Shown here in pieces: positions 37,092 through 46,146 of a stretch of DNA of 53,407 nucleotides. A program made the position numbers and the translations under genes. Every line of letters starts with the position of its first letter. Position 1 is the stretch's first letter. The notes beneath the pieces were generated by a model. That model ran no database searches and was not told the DNA's origin. It was given only the letters and a program-made list of their open reading frames with translations. Origin of the DNA: Alphaproteobacteria bacterium (lineage in GTDB: Bacteria; Pseudomonadota; Alphaproteobacteria; CAAHEQ01; UBA3637); assembly GCA_017958225.1 (NCBI GenBank), contig JAGDDD010000041.1, forward strand, positions 1 through 53,407, given 5' to 3'.

Positions 37092-37514
37092 TTAAGAAGA
37101 TTTTTTGGCGTTAGTTGGCACAGGCACTTCATCCAAAGTTACACGCAGCACGGGCGCAAACACCAATGATGCAATCTCTTGCCCGCGGCGGATCACCAAG
37201 GTACGATCCGTTGTGTTTTGGACAAGTACTTTCAATTCATCGCGTGAGGACGCATCATAGGTGGCCGGCGCATTGAGAACGATAAGGCCGGTGTCTTCAG
37301 ATACGGCGCGTGACGAGCGAATTTGTAACTCGGCCCCCAAGGGGAGTGCGAATATCAAGCCGGTGGGAATTAAAGCGCTTTCGCCGATGCCTAATTTAAC
37401 CGAGGCCGCGCAGGCAGCATAGACTGGTAAGGTGGTGCCTATGCCGTCAGTGTAAGCCGGCAAACGTAACCCAACAGCATGCGGTAAGCGAACGAAAGAG
37501 ATTTTCGGTAACAT
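37092..37514 (-). CDS. Degenerate dUTPase-like protein
   Basis: A 140-residue protein with the trimeric dUTPase fold: GESALIPTGLIFALPLGAELQIRSS, LIVLNAPATYDASSRDELKVLVQN and IRRGQEIASLVFAPVLRV. Motif 1 (usually AGxDL) is replaced by TDGIGTTL, motif 2 (PRSG) reads IRSSRA, motif 3 keeps Asp but not YRGE, and motif 5 (RGxGGFGSTG) is missing. Catalysis as a dUTPase is therefore unlikely. A genuine dut lies at 46.2 kb. AAGGAG precedes the ATG at 37514. Two bases after rsfS. Confidence 0.8.
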   Translation of the reverse strand: MLPKISFVRLPHAVGLRLPAYTDGIGTTLPVYAACAASVKLGIGESALIPTGLIFALPLGAELQIRSSRAVSEDTGLIVLNAPATYDASSRDELKVLVQNTTDRTLVIRRGQEIASLVFAPVLRVTLDEVPVPTNAKKSS

Positions 37515-37516
37515 AT

Positions 37517-37939
37517 CTACTCCTTTGTATGACTCCAAAGTTTTTCCAATTCATAAAAAGCGCGGGCTTGCGGGTGGAAAATATGCACAATAATGTCGTT
37601 GAGATCAATGACGATCCACTCGCCCGAACTTTGCCGCCCTTCAAGACGAGGCTTAAAGCCCAGTTTTTTCAACTCTTCTCCGACCTTGATGGCGGTGCTG
37701 ATGACATGGCGGGTCGAAGTGCCGGACGCAATGACTAATGCGTCGGCCAGGGTTGTTTTCCCAATCAACGAGATGGTCAGCACATCCTGCGCCTTGTTGT
37801 CTTCCAATAATTTAACGACCATTTTTGCCAGTTTTTGTGTGTCTTTGGGCAAAGTCGCCTCTTTTTTCACTGGCGCTTTTTTCATAACCGGTTTTTTCTT
37901 GGCCGGGGCCTTTTTTGTTGTCGTAGTTTTTTTAATCAT
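37517..37939 (-). CDS. rsfS: Ribosomal silencing factor RsfS
   Basis: RsfS binds uL14 and prevents subunit joining in starvation. The domain (about 32-140) shows VVKLLEDNKAQDVLTISL, ADALVIASGTSTRHV, GEWIVIDLNDIIVHIFHPQARAFYELEKLW. The first 30 residues are a Lys/Ala/Pro-rich extension not usual in the family. ATGA overlap with obg. In many alphaproteobacteria rlmH follows rsfS; here the degenerate dUTPase does. Confidence 0.95.
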   Translation of the reverse strand: MIKKTTTTKKAPAKKKPVMKKAPVKKEATLPKDTQKLAKMVVKLLEDNKAQDVLTISLIGKTTLADALVIASGTSTRHVISTAIKVGEELKKLGFKPRLEGRQSSGEWIVIDLNDIIVHIFHPQARAFYELEKLWSHTKE

Positions 37940-38952: not shown

Positions 38953-38981
38953 AGTCTAGCCAATTTTTACACAAAAAGCAA
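38953..38981 (-). promoter_or_regulatory. Promoter of the obg operon
   Basis: Minus strand TTGCTT, 17-base spacer, TAGACT. The -35 and the bases before it are the 19-bp sequence repeated at 40388-40406. Confidence 0.6.
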
Positions 38982-38992
38982 GGTGTTTTTAT
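38974..38992. repeat. 19-bp direct repeat, left copy
   Basis: AAAAGCAAGGTGTTTTTAT, identical to 40388-40406. The two copies bracket the subtilase gene. This copy contains the obg -35 box on the minus strand. Confidence 0.85.
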
Positions 38993-39028: not shown

Positions 39029-40336
39029 TTATCGTGACGCCTCTTTTGTTGGTGTTTTTTTTGCTTTTCTTTGTTGGACTTTATTTTTGATGAAATTGAA
39101 AAGTTTACTATGCGTTTGAGGTAGGGCTGTTGTGGTCTTTATTGCTTGTCTTTTTATGTTGAGCGTATATTCATTTTCCAAGAAGTTCATTAATTGAAGG
39201 AGATTAGGAACTCTTGCAATGCCGTCTTTTCCTAGAGCGCTCGTTGCTACGGTGGCCTCATAAAATTGTTGAGGTGTTACCGAAGGATTGATTTGCCGGG
39301 CCAAAACAAACAAACCGGCAATATAAGGTGTTTTCCATGAGTAATCGGCACGAGCATAATGAACAAACTTATCTGATCCTATCTCTGATGCTGTGGTTAT
39401 ATGTCCAGCAGGAAATGCCAATAACCCCTTTTTGGCTTCTTTTTTTAGATGAGGTAATGCAATATTTACAAACCATCGGGGGAGAAAATAGTTTTTGCCT
39501 TCTTGAGTTGGTTGATTGTACTTCCTATCTAATGCAAATGTCCAAAATGATGTTCCTTCAAAACAAGATGCATTGAGTACAGCCAGTCCATTTTGTTGGG
39601 CATGTTCCATGGCCTTGGCCCATTCGCCCGTTTTGTCCCGTTTGTGCATTGCTCCCCAAGATATAGAGACAACTTGAATGGGTTTTTCACCTTTTTGAAC
39701 CAATTCTTTATTGATTTCAATAATCCGTTCCAGCGCGCGAGCATAATTGTGGGAAGATCCTTTTTTATCATAATCTTTTGAATTCATAGAGATAAACTTG
39801 TTGTTAGCATCAACGTGATTATTGGCGGCGAAATAATATAATTTAGCATCCGGGGCGACACCGCAGGTTTTGCCGACGGCCAAAGATGCCACGGCCGAGC
39901 CGTGCATAGATCCATGCATAGTTTCATGGTTCTCTTCATAGTGTGGCTGATCAAAACCAATTTCTTCATAATGCACCAAGTTGTCGTGATATTCCGTATG
40001 ATCAGATAGGAACTGATCTATAATGGCAATAGATAAACCCTTTCCGGTCAGTCCTTTTTTATGAAGAGCTTGCACATTCAATAGTCGCTTGCCTAATGCC
40101 ATAGTTTCTTTTGGGTCAAAATCCTTCGGCATTTTTGCTAGATCTGTTGGCCAAATTGTGTTTTCGTCAAATTCGATCAATTGAGGATCATAGGCGGACA
40201 AATCCAGTTGAGAGCAATCTACGCCCTTCAACCGTAAAGTAGCATAATCATCTTGAGATATTTGTTCGGGTGTTGGCAAATCATTAGCTTGCACATGTTT
40301 GTTGTTCCAAAAAGGATAAGGTGCTCTTAATTTCAT
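39029..40336 (-). CDS. Subtilisin-like (S8) serine peptidase without signal peptide
   Basis: A 435-residue protein with the catalytic triad in subtilase order: Asp107 in SIAIIDQFL, His145 in SMHGSAVASLAVG, Ser333 in YSWKTPYIAG (compare GTSMATPHVAG), and a candidate oxyanion Asn in VLNASCFEG. There is no signal peptide or propeptide pattern, so it may act in the cytoplasm or leave by another route. The Lys-rich C-terminus is unlike the window's core genes. AGGAG serves ATG ATG at 40339/40336; the second has the better spacing. The gene is flanked by a 19-bp direct repeat. Confidence 0.88.
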   Translation of the reverse strand: MKLRAPYPFWNNKHVQANDLPTPEQISQDDYATLRLKGVDCSQLDLSAYDPQLIEFDENTIWPTDLAKMPKDFDPKETMALGKRLLNVQALHKKGLTGKGLSIAIIDQFLSDHTEYHDNLVHYEEIGFDQPHYEENHETMHGSMHGSAVASLAVGKTCGVAPDAKLYYFAANNHVDANNKFISMNSKDYDKKGSSHNYARALERIIEINKELVQKGEKPIQVVSISWGAMHKRDKTGEWAKAMEHAQQNGLAVLNASCFEGTSFWTFALDRKYNQPTQEGKNYFLPRWFVNIALPHLKKEAKKGLLAFPAGHITTASEIGSDKFVHYARADYSWKTPYIAGLFVLARQINPSVTPQQFYEATVATSALGKDGIARVPNLLQLMNFLENEYTLNIKRQAIKTTTALPQTHSKLFNFIKNKVQQRKAKKTPTKEASR

Positions 40337-40366
40337 CATTTCTCTCCTGTCGAAATTATAAACCGC

Positions 40367-40395
40367 ATTATACCACACTCTTGCGCCAAAAGCAA
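40367..40395 (-). promoter_or_regulatory. Promoter of the subtilase gene
   Basis: Minus strand TTGCTT, 17-base spacer, TATAAT. The -35 lies in the repeated 19-mer, just as for obg. Confidence 0.7.
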
Positions 40396-40406
40396 GGTGT
40401 TTTTAT
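40388..40406. repeat. 19-bp direct repeat, right copy
   Basis: Identical to 38974-38992. It supplies the subtilase -35 on the minus strand and is followed by the G10 tract on the plus strand. Confidence 0.85.
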
Positions 40407-40416
40407 GGGGGGGGGG
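40407..40416. repeat. Homopolymeric G10 tract
   Basis: Ten consecutive G in the gap between the divergent subtilase and DUF362 genes, about 20 bases upstream of the candidate DUF362 -35. The first G belongs to an ATG (40405) preceded by AAGGTG and in frame with the DUF362 gene at this tract length. Confidence 0.9.
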
Positions 40417-40435
40417 ACACCTGTGCAATTTTTTC

Positions 40436-40464
40436 TTGCGTGGGTGGGCAGATTTATATACACT
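40436..40464 (+). promoter_or_regulatory. Possible promoter of the DUF362 gene
   Basis: TTGCGT, 17-base spacer, TACACT; TATACA with a 15-base spacer is an alternative -10. Confidence 0.4.
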
Positions 40465-40485
40465 GGAAAAAGAAGAGGAGGATGT

Positions 40486-41355
40486 ATGCCTAAAGTTTAT
40501 TTTACCCGCGATATCAGCCCGCAAGGCCTGTTAAAACTTTACCATCAAGTCAATCAAGACATTACCGGCAAGGTGGTTATCAAGTTCCATACCGGCGAAC
40601 CGCACGGACCCAACCTGTTGCCGCGCGATATGGTCAAAGCCTTGATAGATGATGTGCCGGGCAGTGTGTTGGCCGATACTAATGTATATTACGAAAGCCC
40701 ACGTCAAACGACAGCCGGCCATCGAGAGACGATACATATCAATGGTTGGGATAAGTTCGCCACTGTCGATATCTTGGATGAAGAGGGGGCTGTGATGCTG
40801 CCGGTGCATGGCGGCAAGCACTTTACGGCCATGTCCATGGGCTCACACATTAAAAATTATGATTCTATGATAGTCTTGACGCACTTTAAGGGTCATACGA
40901 TGGGCGGTTTTGGCGGCTCTATTAAAAATATTGCTATCGGTTGCGCGGACGGCAAAATCGGCAAGAAAATGCTGCACACTTATCCCGGACAAGACCAATG
41001 GTCCATCTGCAAAAAGCCTTTTATGGAAAATATGGTAGAGTCTGCCAAAGCCACGGTAGATTACTTTGCTCCGCACATCACTTTTTTGAACGTTCTGCGT
41101 CGTATGTCCGTTGATTGTGATTGTATGGGCGTTGATGCGGCCGAGCCGACGATACGCGATATCGGTATTTTGGCCTCTACGGATATTTTGGCGGTGGATC
41201 AAGCCTCAATTGATTTGGTCTATCAAGCGCCGGCAAAGGAACTGCACGATATTAAAAAGCGTATTGAATCGCGCGAGGGTTTGCATCAGTTGGTTTATGG
41301 TGCTAAAATCGGTTTAGGCTCACGCAAATACGAACTAATTGACATGGATAAATAA
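40486..41355 (+). CDS. DUF362 family protein
   Basis: A 289-residue protein with the DUF362 pattern: VVIKFHTGEPHGPNLLP, VLADTNVYYESPRQTTAGH, VLTHFKGHTMGGFGGSIKNIAIGCADG, and ILASTDILAVDQASIDLVY. Relatives often carry a 4Fe-4S ferredoxin segment; here only the short CDCMG (near residue 205) and a few other Cys remain. Function of the family is not settled. AGGAGG precedes the ATG. An in-frame ATG at 40405 leading through the G10 tract would add 27 residues with a hydrophobic stretch. The first paralogue gene follows after 11 bases. Confidence 0.8.
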   Translation: MPKVYFTRDISPQGLLKLYHQVNQDITGKVVIKFHTGEPHGPNLLPRDMVKALIDDVPGSVLADTNVYYESPRQTTAGHRETIHINGWDKFATVDILDEEGAVMLPVHGGKHFTAMSMGSHIKNYDSMIVLTHFKGHTMGGFGGSIKNIAIGCADGKIGKKMLHTYPGQDQWSICKKPFMENMVESAKATVDYFAPHITFLNVLRRMSVDCDCMGVDAAEPTIRDIGILASTDILAVDQASIDLVYQAPAKELHDIKKRIESREGLHQLVYGAKIGLGSRKYELIDMDK

Positions 41356-41366
41356 AGGAGAGAACA

Positions 41367-42158
41367 ATGGCGAAAAAAGCACGAAAGGCAAAAAAGAAAA
41401 AAGAAACTCGGACGTCAAAGAAAACCAGCTTGCGCAAAAAGATTACGTGGGGTGTCGTCTTTGTCCTTTTGGCAGGTGCGTTGGCAATTTATTTTTTCGG
41501 CGGAGAGAATGGGCGTCCGATCGGTCAGTATAGGCGCTATACCGATGCAATTGATAATGAATCTTCTGGTACGCATGAGACATTTGATGGTATGTTCTAT
41601 AAGCCCATTATTTACCTGTATCCCAAAAGTGAGATGAAGGTCTCTGTTGAGTTGGGACGCCCGGACAAAGTAACCCACACCTATCCGAAATACAACGACG
41701 GATGGCAAGTGGTGGCGCAACCCAATGGCGATTTGACAGATCCTAAAACAGGGCGGTATTACTATGCTTTGTATTGGGAAGGCGAGAATACCAGGGCGCC
41801 TGCGCCTATGGAAGAGGGCTTTATTGTGCGTGGCGAAGATACCATCAACTTTTTGGAAACGCAGTTGGCAAAACTGGGCTTGAACGAGCGCGAGGCCGAA
41901 GAGTTTATCGTTTATTGGCTGCCCAAATTGGAAAGCAGCCCTTATAACTATATTCGCTTTCAGACAAGGCGAGAGCAGGATCGGCATATGCCCTTAATTA
42001 TCAAGCCTTTCCCCAAGACGATTATACGCGTTATGATGGAATACGCCAATTTGCAAAAGCCTATCAAGGTCACTGAGCAGGTGCTGCCGGAAACGCCGGC
42101 GCGTGACGGCTTTACGGTGGTGGAGTGGGGCGCAACCGAATTGCCCGCACAACAATAG
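41367..42158 (+). CDS. Membrane-anchored protein, YLYP paralogue 1
   Basis: A 263-residue protein with a strongly basic N-terminus (1-27), one TM helix (about 28-46), a linker, then a globular domain. Shared with the next protein: KPIIYLYP, LGRPDKVTHTYPKYNDGWQV, AQPNGDLTD, YYALYWEG, EFIVYWLPKLES, YIRFQTR and GFTVVEWGATELPAQQ. The basic tail puts the domain outside the cytoplasm if the positive-inside rule holds. No named family or catalytic site is evident. Probably co-transcribed with DUF362. Confidence 0.75.
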   Translation: MAKKARKAKKKKETRTSKKTSLRKKITWGVVFVLLAGALAIYFFGGENGRPIGQYRRYTDAIDNESSGTHETFDGMFYKPIIYLYPKSEMKVSVELGRPDKVTHTYPKYNDGWQVVAQPNGDLTDPKTGRYYYALYWEGENTRAPAPMEEGFIVRGEDTINFLETQLAKLGLNEREAEEFIVYWLPKLESSPYNYIRFQTRREQDRHMPLIIKPFPKTIIRVMMEYANLQKPIKVTEQVLPETPARDGFTVVEWGATELPAQQ

Positions 42159-42187
42159 TTGATTTTGGGGCTGTCAGCGCCTATAAT
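42159..42187 (+). promoter_or_regulatory. Promoter of YLYP paralogue 2
   Basis: TTGATT directly after the TAG stop, 17-base spacer, TATAAT. The same arrangement recurs at 42974. Confidence 0.75.
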
Positions 42188-42220
42188 AAGCCTAGGCTAA
42201 CGTGAGATAAGGAGAGGACT

Positions 42221-42973
42221 ATGGCAAAACGCAAAGCAAAACCACCTTTGAAGAAAAAGATTATTATCGCTTTAGTGTTCTTGGGTGTGATTTGTGGCGG
42301 CCTGTGGTATTGGTTATACGATGGTTGCCCTACGGGGGAACATAAATGTTGTTATCTGTCGGCCAGTGGAGATGGAGGACACAGTTGCCATTGCACATCG
42401 TTGGAGTGTATGGATGCTAAACCCGTCATTTATCTGTATCCGACTGAAACGACAGATGTGTTTGTGCAACTCGGACGACCGGAAAATCTGACGCACACTT
42501 ATCCACAATACAACGGCGGTTGGCAAGTTACCGCTCAACCTAATGGCGATTTGACGGACGACAACACTGGACGGCACTATTATTCTTTGTATTGGGAAGG
42601 TGTGCATACGGGCATTCAATCACAACAGGATGGCTTTATTGTGGCCGGTCCGGATACCGTGCGCTTTTTGGAAGAAAAGTTGGCGTGGTTTGGCTTGACA
42701 GAGCGTGAAGCGCAAGAGTTTATTATTTATTGGCTGCCCAGGTTGGAGAGCAATGCGTATAACTTTATTCGTTTCCAAACGAGGGCGGAAATAGACGAGA
42801 ATATGCCGCTGATTATCACGCCTCAGCCGAATACGCTGATACGGGTTATGATGAGTTTTCGCCCTGCCGAACCGGGGGAACAGGTGCCGGCGCAAATCTT
42901 GCCGCCTATGCCTTTCCGCAATGGCTTTACGGTGGTGGAGTGGGGCGCGACCGAATTGCCCGCAAAACAATAG
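42221..42973 (+). CDS. Membrane-anchored protein, YLYP paralogue 2
   Basis: A 250-residue paralogue of the preceding protein. Basic start, TM helix (about 13-33), then a Cys-rich linker (residues about 35-65; GCPTGEHKCCYL, HSCHCTSLEC) absent from paralogue 1, and the same domain: KPVIYLYP, LGRPENLTHTYPQYNGGWQV, YYSLYWEG, EFIIYWLPRLES, NFIRFQTR, GFTVVEWGATELPAKQ. The linker has seven Cys and may hold a metal or disulfides. AAGGAGAGG precedes the ATG. Confidence 0.75.
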   Translation: MAKRKAKPPLKKKIIIALVFLGVICGGLWYWLYDGCPTGEHKCCYLSASGDGGHSCHCTSLECMDAKPVIYLYPTETTDVFVQLGRPENLTHTYPQYNGGWQVTAQPNGDLTDDNTGRHYYSLYWEGVHTGIQSQQDGFIVAGPDTVRFLEEKLAWFGLTEREAQEFIIYWLPRLESNAYNFIRFQTRAEIDENMPLIITPQPNTLIRVMMSFRPAEPGEQVPAQILPPMPFRNGFTVVEWGATELPAKQ

Positions 42974-43002
42974 TTGATTTTAATACCATTTGGGTGTATA
43001 AT
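42974..43002 (+). promoter_or_regulatory. Promoter of the 43036 gene
   Basis: TTGATT directly after the TAG stop, 17-base spacer, TATAAT: a copy of the arrangement at 42159. Confidence 0.75.
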
Positions 43003-43035
43003 ATGCCTATAATCATTTAAACAAAGGAGAAGAAA

Positions 43036-44166
43036 ATGGCAGATGAAACGTTTGCAGATTTGATGAGCCGCGCGACTTTTAAATATTCAAAAGCCGGCGA
43101 TTTACTTATTTGTGTAGATGGTGCTACCTTCAAGTTAAATCAAAAGAAAAATAAAACGCTGCTTGAGTTATCGGTGGAACAAGGTTGGGATATCGGGCAG
43201 AATGCGATGCCACCGGAAGTCGCTAAGTGGATTAATGACTTTTTAGCGGCCTATAAAGAGGGTAAATTGTGGGCAAATGCTCTTGTTTCTGCTATGGCGA
43301 AATTAAAACGTAATGCCGAAACAGGGAGCACGGAGACTTTTTATGAGGTGGCGCTTTCCGATCCACATGTTCTTGCTACATTAGATCCACGCATTCTTAC
43401 CACTTTACCTCCAAGTGATCTGGCCAGGTTGGATCCGACAGTCCTTGCTACTTTGGGTTCGCGCTCTGTGGGGCCGTCTGGGCCTCGTGACCTGGGACCG
43501 GTAAGCCGGTTCCTGTCTGTGAATGACAAAGGTCAGTTGGCTGTTAAAATGGTTTACCTGGGAACGGACGAAGATGGGGTTGTAAGATATGGCATGCCTG
43601 GCGATTATCTGGGTATCGAAAGCTCGTGGTATCCCGGCAAAGATAAACAGATTGGCTATGATGTAGATAACGTGTTGGGTTTGCCGGATGAATCTTCACA
43701 AAATGATCAGACTGTGATTGAATTGCCCTATACGGAAACACCCTCTGCGGAGAATAATCAATCTACCAATTCCAATACATCCACTCCGGGATCCCCGACA
43801 GGCACTGGTGGTAATGGCAAGATCAATCTTGTGGATAATAAAGCACAAGATATGACGAAACCAGAAAACAATTCTGGTGCGCGTATCGTATCGGGTCAGA
43901 CTGTGGCAAAACAGGCTCAAAAAGATGAGAAACATACGAAGAAGGGTAAGCGACTTCTTACTAGCGAACAGAGAAAGGCGCGTCGTCGGAAACCAAGACA
44001 GACAAGGAACAATCCTTCCAAGGATGATAAGGCTCAAAAAAGGTTGCTCGCCGTTCTCACGGCACACTATCGGAAAGAGGGAACAATCACCAGCAATCAA
44101 AGAGTGGTAGGTATGGCCAACAGGGGCGGGAAGCTTATACCAAAAGTAGCAAAAGTTACGCGCTGA
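43036..44166 (+). CDS. Repeat-containing protein, unrecognised
   Basis: A 376-residue protein without signal peptide or membrane segment. Residues about 107-142 hold a short leucine repeat (DPHVLATLDP, RILTTLPPSD, LARLDPTVLATLG), about 11 residues per unit. The middle (235-280) is Asn/Ser/Thr/Gly-rich, and the last 100 residues are very basic (KKGKRLLTSEQRKARRRKPR). A two-part layout of globular head, flexible linker and nucleic-acid-like tail can be seen, but no family. A strong terminator follows. Confidence 0.65.
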   Translation: MADETFADLMSRATFKYSKAGDLLICVDGATFKLNQKKNKTLLELSVEQGWDIGQNAMPPEVAKWINDFLAAYKEGKLWANALVSAMAKLKRNAETGSTETFYEVALSDPHVLATLDPRILTTLPPSDLARLDPTVLATLGSRSVGPSGPRDLGPVSRFLSVNDKGQLAVKMVYLGTDEDGVVRYGMPGDYLGIESSWYPGKDKQIGYDVDNVLGLPDESSQNDQTVIELPYTETPSAENNQSTNSNTSTPGSPTGTGGNGKINLVDNKAQDMTKPENNSGARIVSGQTVAKQAQKDEKHTKKGKRLLTSEQRKARRRKPRQTRNNPSKDDKAQKRLLAVLTAHYRKEGTITSNQRVVGMANRGGKLIPKVAKVTR

Positions 44167-44190
44167 TGGTCCTTGTCAATTATAAAAAAA

Positions 44191-44217
44191 CACCCTCACA
44201 ATGAGGGTGTTTTTTTT
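44191..44217. terminator. Bidirectional terminator
   Basis: CACCCTCA at 44191-44198 pairs perfectly with TGAGGGTG at 44202-44209, with A7 before and T8 after. It ends the island genes on the plus strand and the four-gene array on the minus strand. Confidence 0.92.
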
Positions 44218-44247
44218 ACGGGTAATATGAGCTAGTTTTAAATTATG

Positions 44248-44841
44248 TCACTCATATTCTTTAGGTGGTCGTTTCCCTGGGTTCGCGCGGTGTGCTGCAC
44301 GCAGGCGTTTTTTGTTTTGAGATTTTTGTTTGCAATAGTCTTTATAAGCGTCTTCAAGCACTTGTCTTGTTTCCAGCTTGCTAGCGGCCCTTCCGATCAA
44401 GAATTCGGCTTGGTCTTTGATTTGTGCCTTTTGTTCCTCTGGATTTTTATATCTTTTACGGTTCTGTTCGGCTATGTGGTAGGCACCTATTCTCCACCTT
44501 TCATACTGTGTTGGCTCCTTTTGTGCGTGAAAGGCTTTTTTAGCACCTCTTACACGGTTCTGTACATACCTGTCACGATTCTTTACTTCACGAGAATAAC
44601 GGTAATCTTCTATAATATCAATATCTTGTAAAAATTGTGTATCAGTTGCCTGTTGCGTCAAGTCTTCCACTAGTTCTGTGTAGGTTCCTTTCCCTGCCTT
44701 AGAGAGGATTTCAGCTCGTAACTCAATAGCTTTTTGTAGTTCTTCTTGTGTAAAAGTCACTTTTTGGGCTTTTTTGTCCATGTATTTTTGCACGGATGGT
44801 TTAGAATTTTGTTCGTTGTGTCTGACTGGTTTTACTGTCAT
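44248..44841 (-). CDS. Basic coiled protein of the tRNA-Leu array, gene 4
   Basis: A 197-residue charged, helix-rich protein without signal or membrane segment. FTQEELQKAIELRAEIL (about 30-46) closely resembles YTQEELKEAIRFRAEIN of array gene 1. KKAFHAQKEPTQYERWRIGAYHIAEQ and LEDAYKDYCKQ resemble the second shared motif. Leader AACAACACATAGGAGAAA is shared with array genes 1 and 3. Arg uses AGA and AGG codons often. No known family. Confidence 0.65.
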   Translation of the reverse strand: MTVKPVRHNEQNSKPSVQKYMDKKAQKVTFTQEELQKAIELRAEILSKAGKGTYTELVEDLTQQATDTQFLQDIDIIEDYRYSREVKNRDRYVQNRVRGAKKAFHAQKEPTQYERWRIGAYHIAEQNRKRYKNPEEQKAQIKDQAEFLIGRAASKLETRQVLEDAYKDYCKQKSQNKKRLRAAHRANPGKRPPKEYE

Positions 44842-44877
44842 ATTGATTTCTCCTATGTGTTGTTAATTTTTTGAGGG

Positions 44878-45198
44878 TTAGTCTTTTACAAAGTTTTTAT
44901 TCATTGGGTTGGTTTTTGGGACGTAATGACCCACCCTATTTATCTGCACCTGATCAAAGAAGGGGCGTTCTTTTTTGGGCAGTTTAAGATACTCACTGTA
45001 AGTTTTTAAAAGATTCGCAGCAAATTTCTTGTCTTTTTGAGCTTTTTCAGTAAATTCCTTACCTTTCTTCTCGCAGATATCTTCGTATACATCTTGATGA
45101 AGTGCGGTATTCTCAAGGCTATCGATGGTGGCACGAGCGTAGATATGCGCGAGCCAGATAATAGCATCTTCCAGTTTAGTTGTCTTTTTGCCTCTCAT
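44878..45198 (-). CDS. Basic coiled protein of the tRNA-Leu array, gene 3
   Basis: A 106-residue charged protein. EKAQKDKKFAANLLKTYSEYLKLPKKER (split here as EKAQKDKKFAANLLK and TYSEYLKLPKKER) resembles SKAQKNPDYAYWAVQ and AYRDHCKIPLEGRE of array gene 1. The leader AACAACACATAGGAGAAA is identical to that of gene 4. No membrane segment. Function unknown. Confidence 0.6.
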   Translation of the reverse strand: MRGKKTTKLEDAIIWLAHIYARATIDSLENTALHQDVYEDICEKKGKEFTEKAQKDKKFAANLLKTYSEYLKLPKKERPFFDQVQINRVGHYVPKTNPMNKNFVKD

Positions 45199-45227
45199 GT
45201 CAATTTCTCCTATGTGTTGTTGATTGT

Positions 45228-45668
45228 TTAAGATTTTTGATGTCCGCCATCGTCAAGGTATTGCAATTGGGGCATTTGATGCTTCTTAAGGCGTCGCGGT
45301 TGCGTTTTCTTCACGCCTCGTGCCTGAGCCTTCTTCACGCCGCGCACTTGAGTTTTCTTTTGGCCTTGTTTTTGAGCCCGCTTCACACGCCGTTTTTGGG
45401 CCTTCTTTTTGCATCTTACGCGCCGTCCTTTGCCACGTCGCGTGGGGGAGCCCTGTTCATCCTCTTCTGAGAACTCTTGTTCTTCGGCGGCTTTTGCTAG
45501 CAAGATTAGGCGTATCTTTGTGTATTGTTTTTCCCATTCTTCCTGATACTTTCCCTTTTCCCAGTTCAGTTTATCTGCGCAGGCTTGATCGGCAAGCTCT
45601 TTGGCTCGCGCGTCAATAATTGTTTCTAACATAGGGTTATGTAATTCTTTCTTTGCCTTCTTTGGCAT
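45228..45668 (-). CDS. Basic protein with octapeptide repeats, array gene 2
   Basis: A 146-residue protein. IIDARAKEL near the start recalls the AIxxRAEI motif of genes 1 and 4. From residue 87 to 134 it consists of six tandem octapeptides: KKKAQKRR, VKRAQKQG, QKKTQVRG, VKKAQARG, VKKTQPRR, LKKHQMPQ. The tail resembles histone-H1-like bacterial proteins and should bind nucleic acid or another polyanion. The leader is a looser version of the array consensus (TTAGGGAAAC). Confidence 0.65.
   Translation of the reverse strand: MPKKAKKELHNPMLETIIDARAKELADQACADKLNWEKGKYQEEWEKQYTKIRLILLAKAAEEQEFSEEDEQGSPTRRGKGRRVRCKKKAQKRRVKRAQKQGQKKTQVRGVKKAQARGVKKTQPRRLKKHQMPQLQYLDDGGHQKS
45267..45410 (-). repeat. 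Six degenerate 24-bp tandem repeats
   Basis: They encode the octapeptide K/V-K-K-A/T-Q-x-R-G units of array gene 2. The DNA copies have diverged, so the repeat is older than a recent slippage event. Copy number may vary between strains. Confidence 0.75.
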
Positions 45669-45724
45669 ATCAGTTTCCCTAATATCTTGTTTGGATTGGT
45701 CAGAAAACTCAAATAACGCGGGTT

Positions 45725-46027
45725 CTACATTGCATTTTGTGATTGTTGGTTTTGTCTTTTAAAATCGAACTTTTTCAAGTTTATAAGTCTCCGCTTATCC
45801 GCCTCACGTCCTTCGAGAGGGATTTTGCAGTGATCTCTATAAGCTTGTACCGCCCAATATGCGTAATCAGGATTTTTCTGTGCTTTGGACATTAAGGATC
45901 TAACTGTCCATGGGAACGCCTTCGCCTGTTTAGCTTTCTCTGCGGATGCCGCCCCAACATTAATCTCAGCTCGAAAACGAATGGCTTCCTTTAATTCTTC
46001 TTGTGTGTAGTTATCTTTTTTTGTCAT
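45725..46027 (-). CDS. Basic coiled protein of the tRNA-Leu array, gene 1
   Basis: A 100-residue protein with YTQEELKEAIRFRAEIN (about 7-23), a linker, and SLMSKAQKNPDYAYWAVQ followed by AYRDHCKIPLEGREADKRR. The frame is open upstream through the tRNA gene; the ATG at 46027 with AGGAGAAACAGAC before it is the true start. It lies 30 bases downstream of tRNA-Leu with no terminator between, so the tRNA promoter can drive it. Function unknown. Confidence 0.65.
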   Translation of the reverse strand: MTKKDNYTQEELKEAIRFRAEINVGAASAEKAKQAKAFPWTVRSLMSKAQKNPDYAYWAVQAYRDHCKIPLEGREADKRRLINLKKFDFKRQNQQSQNAM

Positions 46028-46057
46028 GTCTGTTTCTCCTATATGTTGTTCTTTAAT

Positions 46058-46146
46058 TGGTGCGGAAAGCCGGAATCGAACCGGCACGGGAGCAAAGTCC
46101 CAACAGATTTTAAGTCTGTTGCGTCTACCTATTCCGCCATATCCGC
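46058..46146 (-). tRNA. tRNA-Leu (anticodon TAA)
   Basis: 89-base type II tRNA with encoded CCA. The anticodon loop is CTTAAAA (anticodon TAA), the variable arm GGGACTTTGCTCCC, and the T arm GCCGGTTCGATTCCGGC. Acceptor GCGGATA pairs with TTTCCGC except for one T-T opposition at the sixth pair. It borders the accessory region. Confidence 0.93.

Follow-up and report, generated by a model that had tools for sequence, protein, structure and literature searches.

The genes between obg and dut in this contig are probably a mosaic of singly acquired genes, gathered at a permissive site (a rearranged junction together with a tRNA hotspot) and not one unit, and its parts need not act together. The window, meaning the whole stretch of 53,407 nucleotides that was analysed, belongs to a metagenome-assembled genome of 0.91 Mb (42 contigs, 85% complete). 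The subtilase, DUF362 protein, pair of ‘YLYP’ genes, repeat protein, small reading frames and tRNA described in the initial annotation are all present at 39029-46146, in the order subtilase, DUF362, YLYP1, YLYP2, repeat protein, s4-s3-s2-s1 and tRNA-Leu(taa) (Table 1), and the core-type genes that it placed on both sides are there as well (rsfS-obg on one side, dut and an ABC-F ATPase on the other). Taken as a whole, the region would be an ordinary accessory mosaic; the YLYP domain, and a set of insertions into an envelope operon of related genomes, are the parts worth following separately.

Table 1. Features of the region between obg and dut (positions in the window)
Feature	Positions	Strand	Remarks
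19-bp direct repeat, left copy	38974..38992	+	exact
Subtilase (S8), cytosolic	39029..40378	-	triad intact; Pfam Peptidase_S8 4.7e-13
19-bp direct repeat, right copy	40388..40406	+	exact
DUF362 protein	40486..41355	+	Pfam 1.2e-39; native composition
YLYP1, signal-anchored, extracytoplasmic YLYP domain	41367..42158	+	domain from about 41592
Promoter-like TTGATT-17-TATAAT	42159..42187	+	before YLYP2
YLYP2, signal-anchored, extracytoplasmic YLYP domain	42221..42973	+	domain from about 42401
Promoter-like TTGATT-17-TATAAT	42974..43002	+	before repeat protein
Orphan repeat protein	43036..44166	+	octapeptide (DPxxLATL-like) repeat; basic C-terminus
Perfect inverted repeat	44184..44216	.	putative bidirectional terminator between two convergent gene groups
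s4, small basic ORF	44248..44841	-	
s3, small basic ORF	44878..45198	-	
s2, small basic ORF	45228..45668	-	Lys/Arg-rich tail
s1, small basic ORF	45725..46027	-	
tRNA-Leu(taa)	46058..46146	-	terminator-like hairpin absent here

Occurrence and composition of the genes

The family sample comprised 43 genomes from 13 genera (genus g1, to which the genome of the window belongs, being represented by that one genome); the relatives G012, G024, G028 and G057 are ruminant-gut metagenome-assembled genomes labelled Alphaproteobacteria, and the incompleteness of the relatives lends some error to every absence. The subtilase is found in 8 of the 43 genomes, DUF362 in 15 and YLYP in 9, and where they are present in relatives they lie in unrelated places. 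The initial annotation had proposed a lineage-specific or transferred block and had suggested a check of co-occurrence, which was run; the pairwise overlaps did not exceed chance (YLYP with subtilase in 3 genomes against 1.7 expected, p=0.33; YLYP with DUF362 in 1 against 3.1, this genome being the only one of the 43 to hold both; subtilase with DUF362 in 2 against 2.8). The idea of ‘one block’ is thereby refuted, because the genes occur independently of each other, while the lineage-specific part of the proposal holds: the arrangement is seen in no examined relative, and several of the genes are foreign in composition.

Composition is not uniform across the region either. Third-position GC content is atypical in the subtilase (GC3 z -4.5), s4 (-4.5), s1 (-3.9) and s3 (-2.8), and the repeat protein is atypical by codon usage (z -3.5); DUF362, YLYP1 and YLYP2 lie within 1 SD of the core and appear native. 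Counting against a mosaic, the four genes from DUF362 to the repeat protein all run in one direction and are separated by short gaps, in the manner of an operon.

Two further readings were considered and dropped. None of the nine proteins matched a known anti-phage defence system in PADLOC at E 0.1. A phage or viral origin was set aside on the grounds that the repeat protein and s4 have no relatives in phages or viral contigs (IMG/VR), YLYP has none in IMG/VR, and the subtilase has weak matches only.

The tRNA-Leu(taa) gene and the small reading frames

The strongest of the competing explanations, itself unlikely, is that the genes form one transferred genomic island, or a decayed integrative element at tRNA-Leu(taa) from which the integrase was lost. 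As in a tRNA-anchored island, the accessory genes stand directly behind the 3' end of the tRNA, and in the relative G008 the 3' side of the same tRNA carries a tyrosine integrase with DUF6538, followed by GmrSD, an IMS polymerase and HsdM (L210 5358-18000); mobile genes also lie near this tRNA in G018. The foreign-like composition of the subtilase, the repeat protein and three of the small ORFs would suit such an origin, but the native composition of DUF362 and YLYP would not, the components were not found travelling together among the relatives examined, and the searches of phages and viral contigs gave no relative of the repeat protein or s4. Moreover, the block holds no integrase gene, and an att-like repeat matching the 3' end of the tRNA was sought in the window and not found (the longest match, of 13 nt, falls in the anticodon part); the role of the tRNA is therefore inferred from the relatives. 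The region would also differ from a tRNA-anchored island in that its second boundary appears to be a rearrangement breakpoint and its genes to have arrived separately.

Behind the tRNA, the right-most small ORF had been thought to begin inside the tRNA gene; its start has been corrected to 46027, which puts s1 30 nt behind the tRNA. The tRNA itself is preceded by a promoter-like TTTACT-17-TAAAAT, with no such element between it and s1. A hairpin with a T-run, found directly after tRNA-Leu(taa) in three relatives, is missing from the window. The small ORFs may form an operon that is transcribed by read-through from the promoter of the tRNA, with the inverted repeat beyond s4 as its end.

That these four ORFs are basic and related to each other was upheld in part. 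All have a pI of 9.4-10.2, and the pairs s1/s3, s1/s4 and s2/s3 score 4.0, 4.7 and 3.1 SD above shuffles, although one or more of 300 shuffles outscored the real pair in the case of s1/s4 and of s2/s3; the other pairs are at noise, and s2 is not conspicuous. A leader of 46 nt with a ribosome-binding site precedes s1, s3 and s4, its copies being 72-80% identical to the reference one. Neither the repeat protein nor s4 has a convincing relative in the 43 family genomes, where weak matches only were seen and were treated as chance; the comparison of s1, s2 and s3 covered the loci of relatives that were examined. A single-sequence structure model of s4 was unusable (pLDDT 51).

The subtilase, the YLYP domain and insertions in core operons

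The subtilase bears the marks of a one-gene insertion. The 19-bp direct repeat that brackets it has a chance mean of 0.05 even at 3 mismatches; the flanks of the other subtilase copies hold no repeats beyond those of shuffles, except for an 18-bp A-rich repeat in G013. Like other members of Peptidase S8 (PDB 3afg and 7xr8, the latter an intracellular serine protease), to which it has a domain-level sequence match, the predicted protease of about 430 aa has the catalytic Asp, His and Ser, and Asp108, His146 and Ser334 are invariant in nine members and align to the subtilisin triad positions. It differs in having no export signal: the absence of a signal peptide noted earlier was borne out by an N-terminus that is not hydrophobic, and a membrane segment is likewise lacking. 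The family is also set apart by its insertion as single genes into core operons and by its rarity outside its own family of genomes, where it was found in 2 others among 385 sampled in the class (1e-30). A second copy in the same genome (L212 8516-9691, contig G000:C1) is flanked on its two sides by the 3' ends of tRNA-Ser(cga) and tRNA-Asp(gtc).

The adjacent DUF362 protein matches the whole domain of PF04015 above the gathering score (136.9 bits against a cut-off of 24). In relatives, DUF362 neighbours are flavodoxin-like, LarC-like or FMN-reductase-like genes (named by eye), and some copies have a twin-arginine-like start; compared with these relatives, which often combine a Tat-like N-terminus with flavodoxin-like, LarC-like or Fe-S neighbours, the copy in the window stands alone, with neither Tat signal nor partner genes. 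The protein probably has a redox-related function that does not depend on the genes around it.

From DUF362 to the repeat protein the genes would make up a second group, convergent with the small ORFs; within this group YLYP2 and the repeat gene would each have a promoter of their own. Behind the stop codons of both YLYP genes the TTGATT and TATAAT elements are kept at a spacing of 17 nt while the spacer sequence has diverged, which is good evidence that both of these predicted promoters work. YLYP1 and YLYP2 are 55% identical, as suits the paralogues they had been taken for, and their 3' ends, of about 60 nt, are nearly identical (42100-42166 and 42915-42981), compared with about 70% identity in the remainder of the genes, a pattern that points to gene conversion. 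A recent tandem duplication as the source of the pair was considered and set aside: in the best tree YLYP2 groups with the copy of G008 and YLYP1 with those of G001 and G012, although an AU test does not reject sisterhood of the two (p 0.17 and 0.08). The alphaproteobacterial copies form one clade (95/83).

The YLYP domain itself, of about 185 aa, is C-terminal in nearly all of the loci that were read, and is preceded variously by a lipoprotein-like signal, a transmembrane anchor, Sel1 repeats, or a dockerin/SH3 or Cu-amine-oxidase N-terminal domain. It is encoded in at least 566 stretches of GTDB genomes, the best 80 of which are mostly from gut Clostridia, Bacilli and Saccharibacteria, and also from Bacteroidota, Myxococcota and Actinomycetota; these unannotated gut-bacterial proteins share the motif set KPxIYLYP...EWGG. 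One copy lies on a plasmid of Ruminococcus albus 7, where its sole annotation is BspA family leucine-rich repeat surface protein; no described family was found. The neighbourhoods of 80 loci have nothing conserved in common apart from further YLYP copies in tandem and some small clusters. When 74 members were scanned, no family was matched by more than one (Pfam) or more than two (NCBIfam); no description of the motif as a family was found in the open-licence literature, and no PDB sequence matched. The domain of YLYP2 (window 42401-42973) was modelled with a pLDDT of 96.9 and a pTM of 0.91, and the model has no fold match in the PDB (best E 0.19, TM below 0.2); the same predicted fold is found in an uncharacterised protein of Terrestrivirus sp. 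(A0A3G4ZNZ8; Foldseek 2.9e-13, TM 0.77). In the window, both proteins would be anchored in the inner membrane and expose the conserved domain to the periplasm, and the domain is probably one for binding and not catalysis, because its invariant residues include many aromatics but neither His nor Cys, Ser or Asp. A surface domain that is conserved, widespread and confidently modelled, and that lacks both a family entry and a fold match in the PDB, opens testable questions.

Relatives usually show the order ruvB-ybgC-tolQ-tolR-tolA, and insertions into this operon take four arrangements: ruvB|subtilase-kinase|ybgC (G063, where a kinase-like gene accompanies the subtilase), ruvB|YLYP|ybgC (G017 and G024), ybgC|subtilase|tolQ (G021) and tolR|subtilase|tolA (G065), the operon genes being named by sequence recognition and mutual similarity and not by family scans. 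These insertions are seamless, with stops and starts that abut within a few bases (loci L214, L215, L219, L065 and L066). With G017 and G024 taken once, 4 of 15 placements fall in the operon, for which the probability would be near 1e-6 under random placement, a figure that serves as a guide only, since the operon had been noticed before the test. Seamless insertion in a core envelope operon points either to a hotspot or to a functional connection with the Tol system. The chances seem evenly divided on a broader statement: that YLYP is an undescribed extracytoplasmic domain of unsolved fold, common to numerous gut bacteria as well as a giant virus, and that it and the cytosolic subtilase family enter core operons without a seam, in most cases one gene at a time and unaccompanied by mobile-element genes, the ruvB-ybgC-tol envelope operon being a favoured site.

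Since both genes are found in that operon in relatives more often than random placement would predict, and since DUF362, YLYP1, YLYP2 and the repeat gene are adjacent and co-directional in the window, it could be supposed that a periplasmic YLYP, a protease and a DUF362 redox protein cooperate as a functional envelope module. This is quite improbable, however: the components do not co-occur, the subtilase and DUF362 of the window have no export signals while YLYP is extracytoplasmic, and the relatives' DUF362 is found beside flavodoxin-like and LarC-like genes instead.

The junction between the obg and dut sides

It had also been proposed to ask whether obg and dut are adjacent where the block is absent. 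Matches to the obg family are present in 43 of 43 genomes (most of them full-length), and dut or its paralogue in 42, and the two were neighbours in none of the 20 relatives that were read at obg; in G017 about 15 kb of a single contig separates them. There is therefore no clean empty site, and the window marks a junction made by rearrangement, next to an integration hotspot at tRNA-Leu. By sequence recognition, rplU-rpmA precede obg in g8 and g9, and in g6 rpmA is also near obg, with one extra gene between; obg neighbours vary elsewhere in the family. In the genome studied here, rpmA is on another contig (C6), where it follows mfd and rplU. As for the dut side, tRNA-Leu(taa) is near dut in G008, G018 and G023, with one or two genes between, among them a gene of about 250 aa that is absent from the window. 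Two loci that are separate in the examined relatives, rplU-rpmA|obg-rsfS and tRNA-Leu(taa)|dut, are thus joined in the window.

For a mosaic of singly acquired genes, the course of events would begin with a rearrangement that separated obg from rpmA, after which the 3' side of tRNA-Leu would have collected genes that arrived separately. That the obg and dut sides were wrongly joined during assembly is very improbable, for although the junction occurs in no examined relative and the genome is metagenome-assembled in 42 contigs, the core flanks are alike in composition, the 19-bp repeat is too short to account for misjoined long contigs, and the surroundings of obg are commonly rearranged within the family.

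A second dUTPase-like gene lies behind rsfS (window 37092-37538) and is kept in most of the family; in G022, G005, G014, G007 and G010, which have no strong match to a canonical dut, this paralogue is the only dUTPase-like gene seen.
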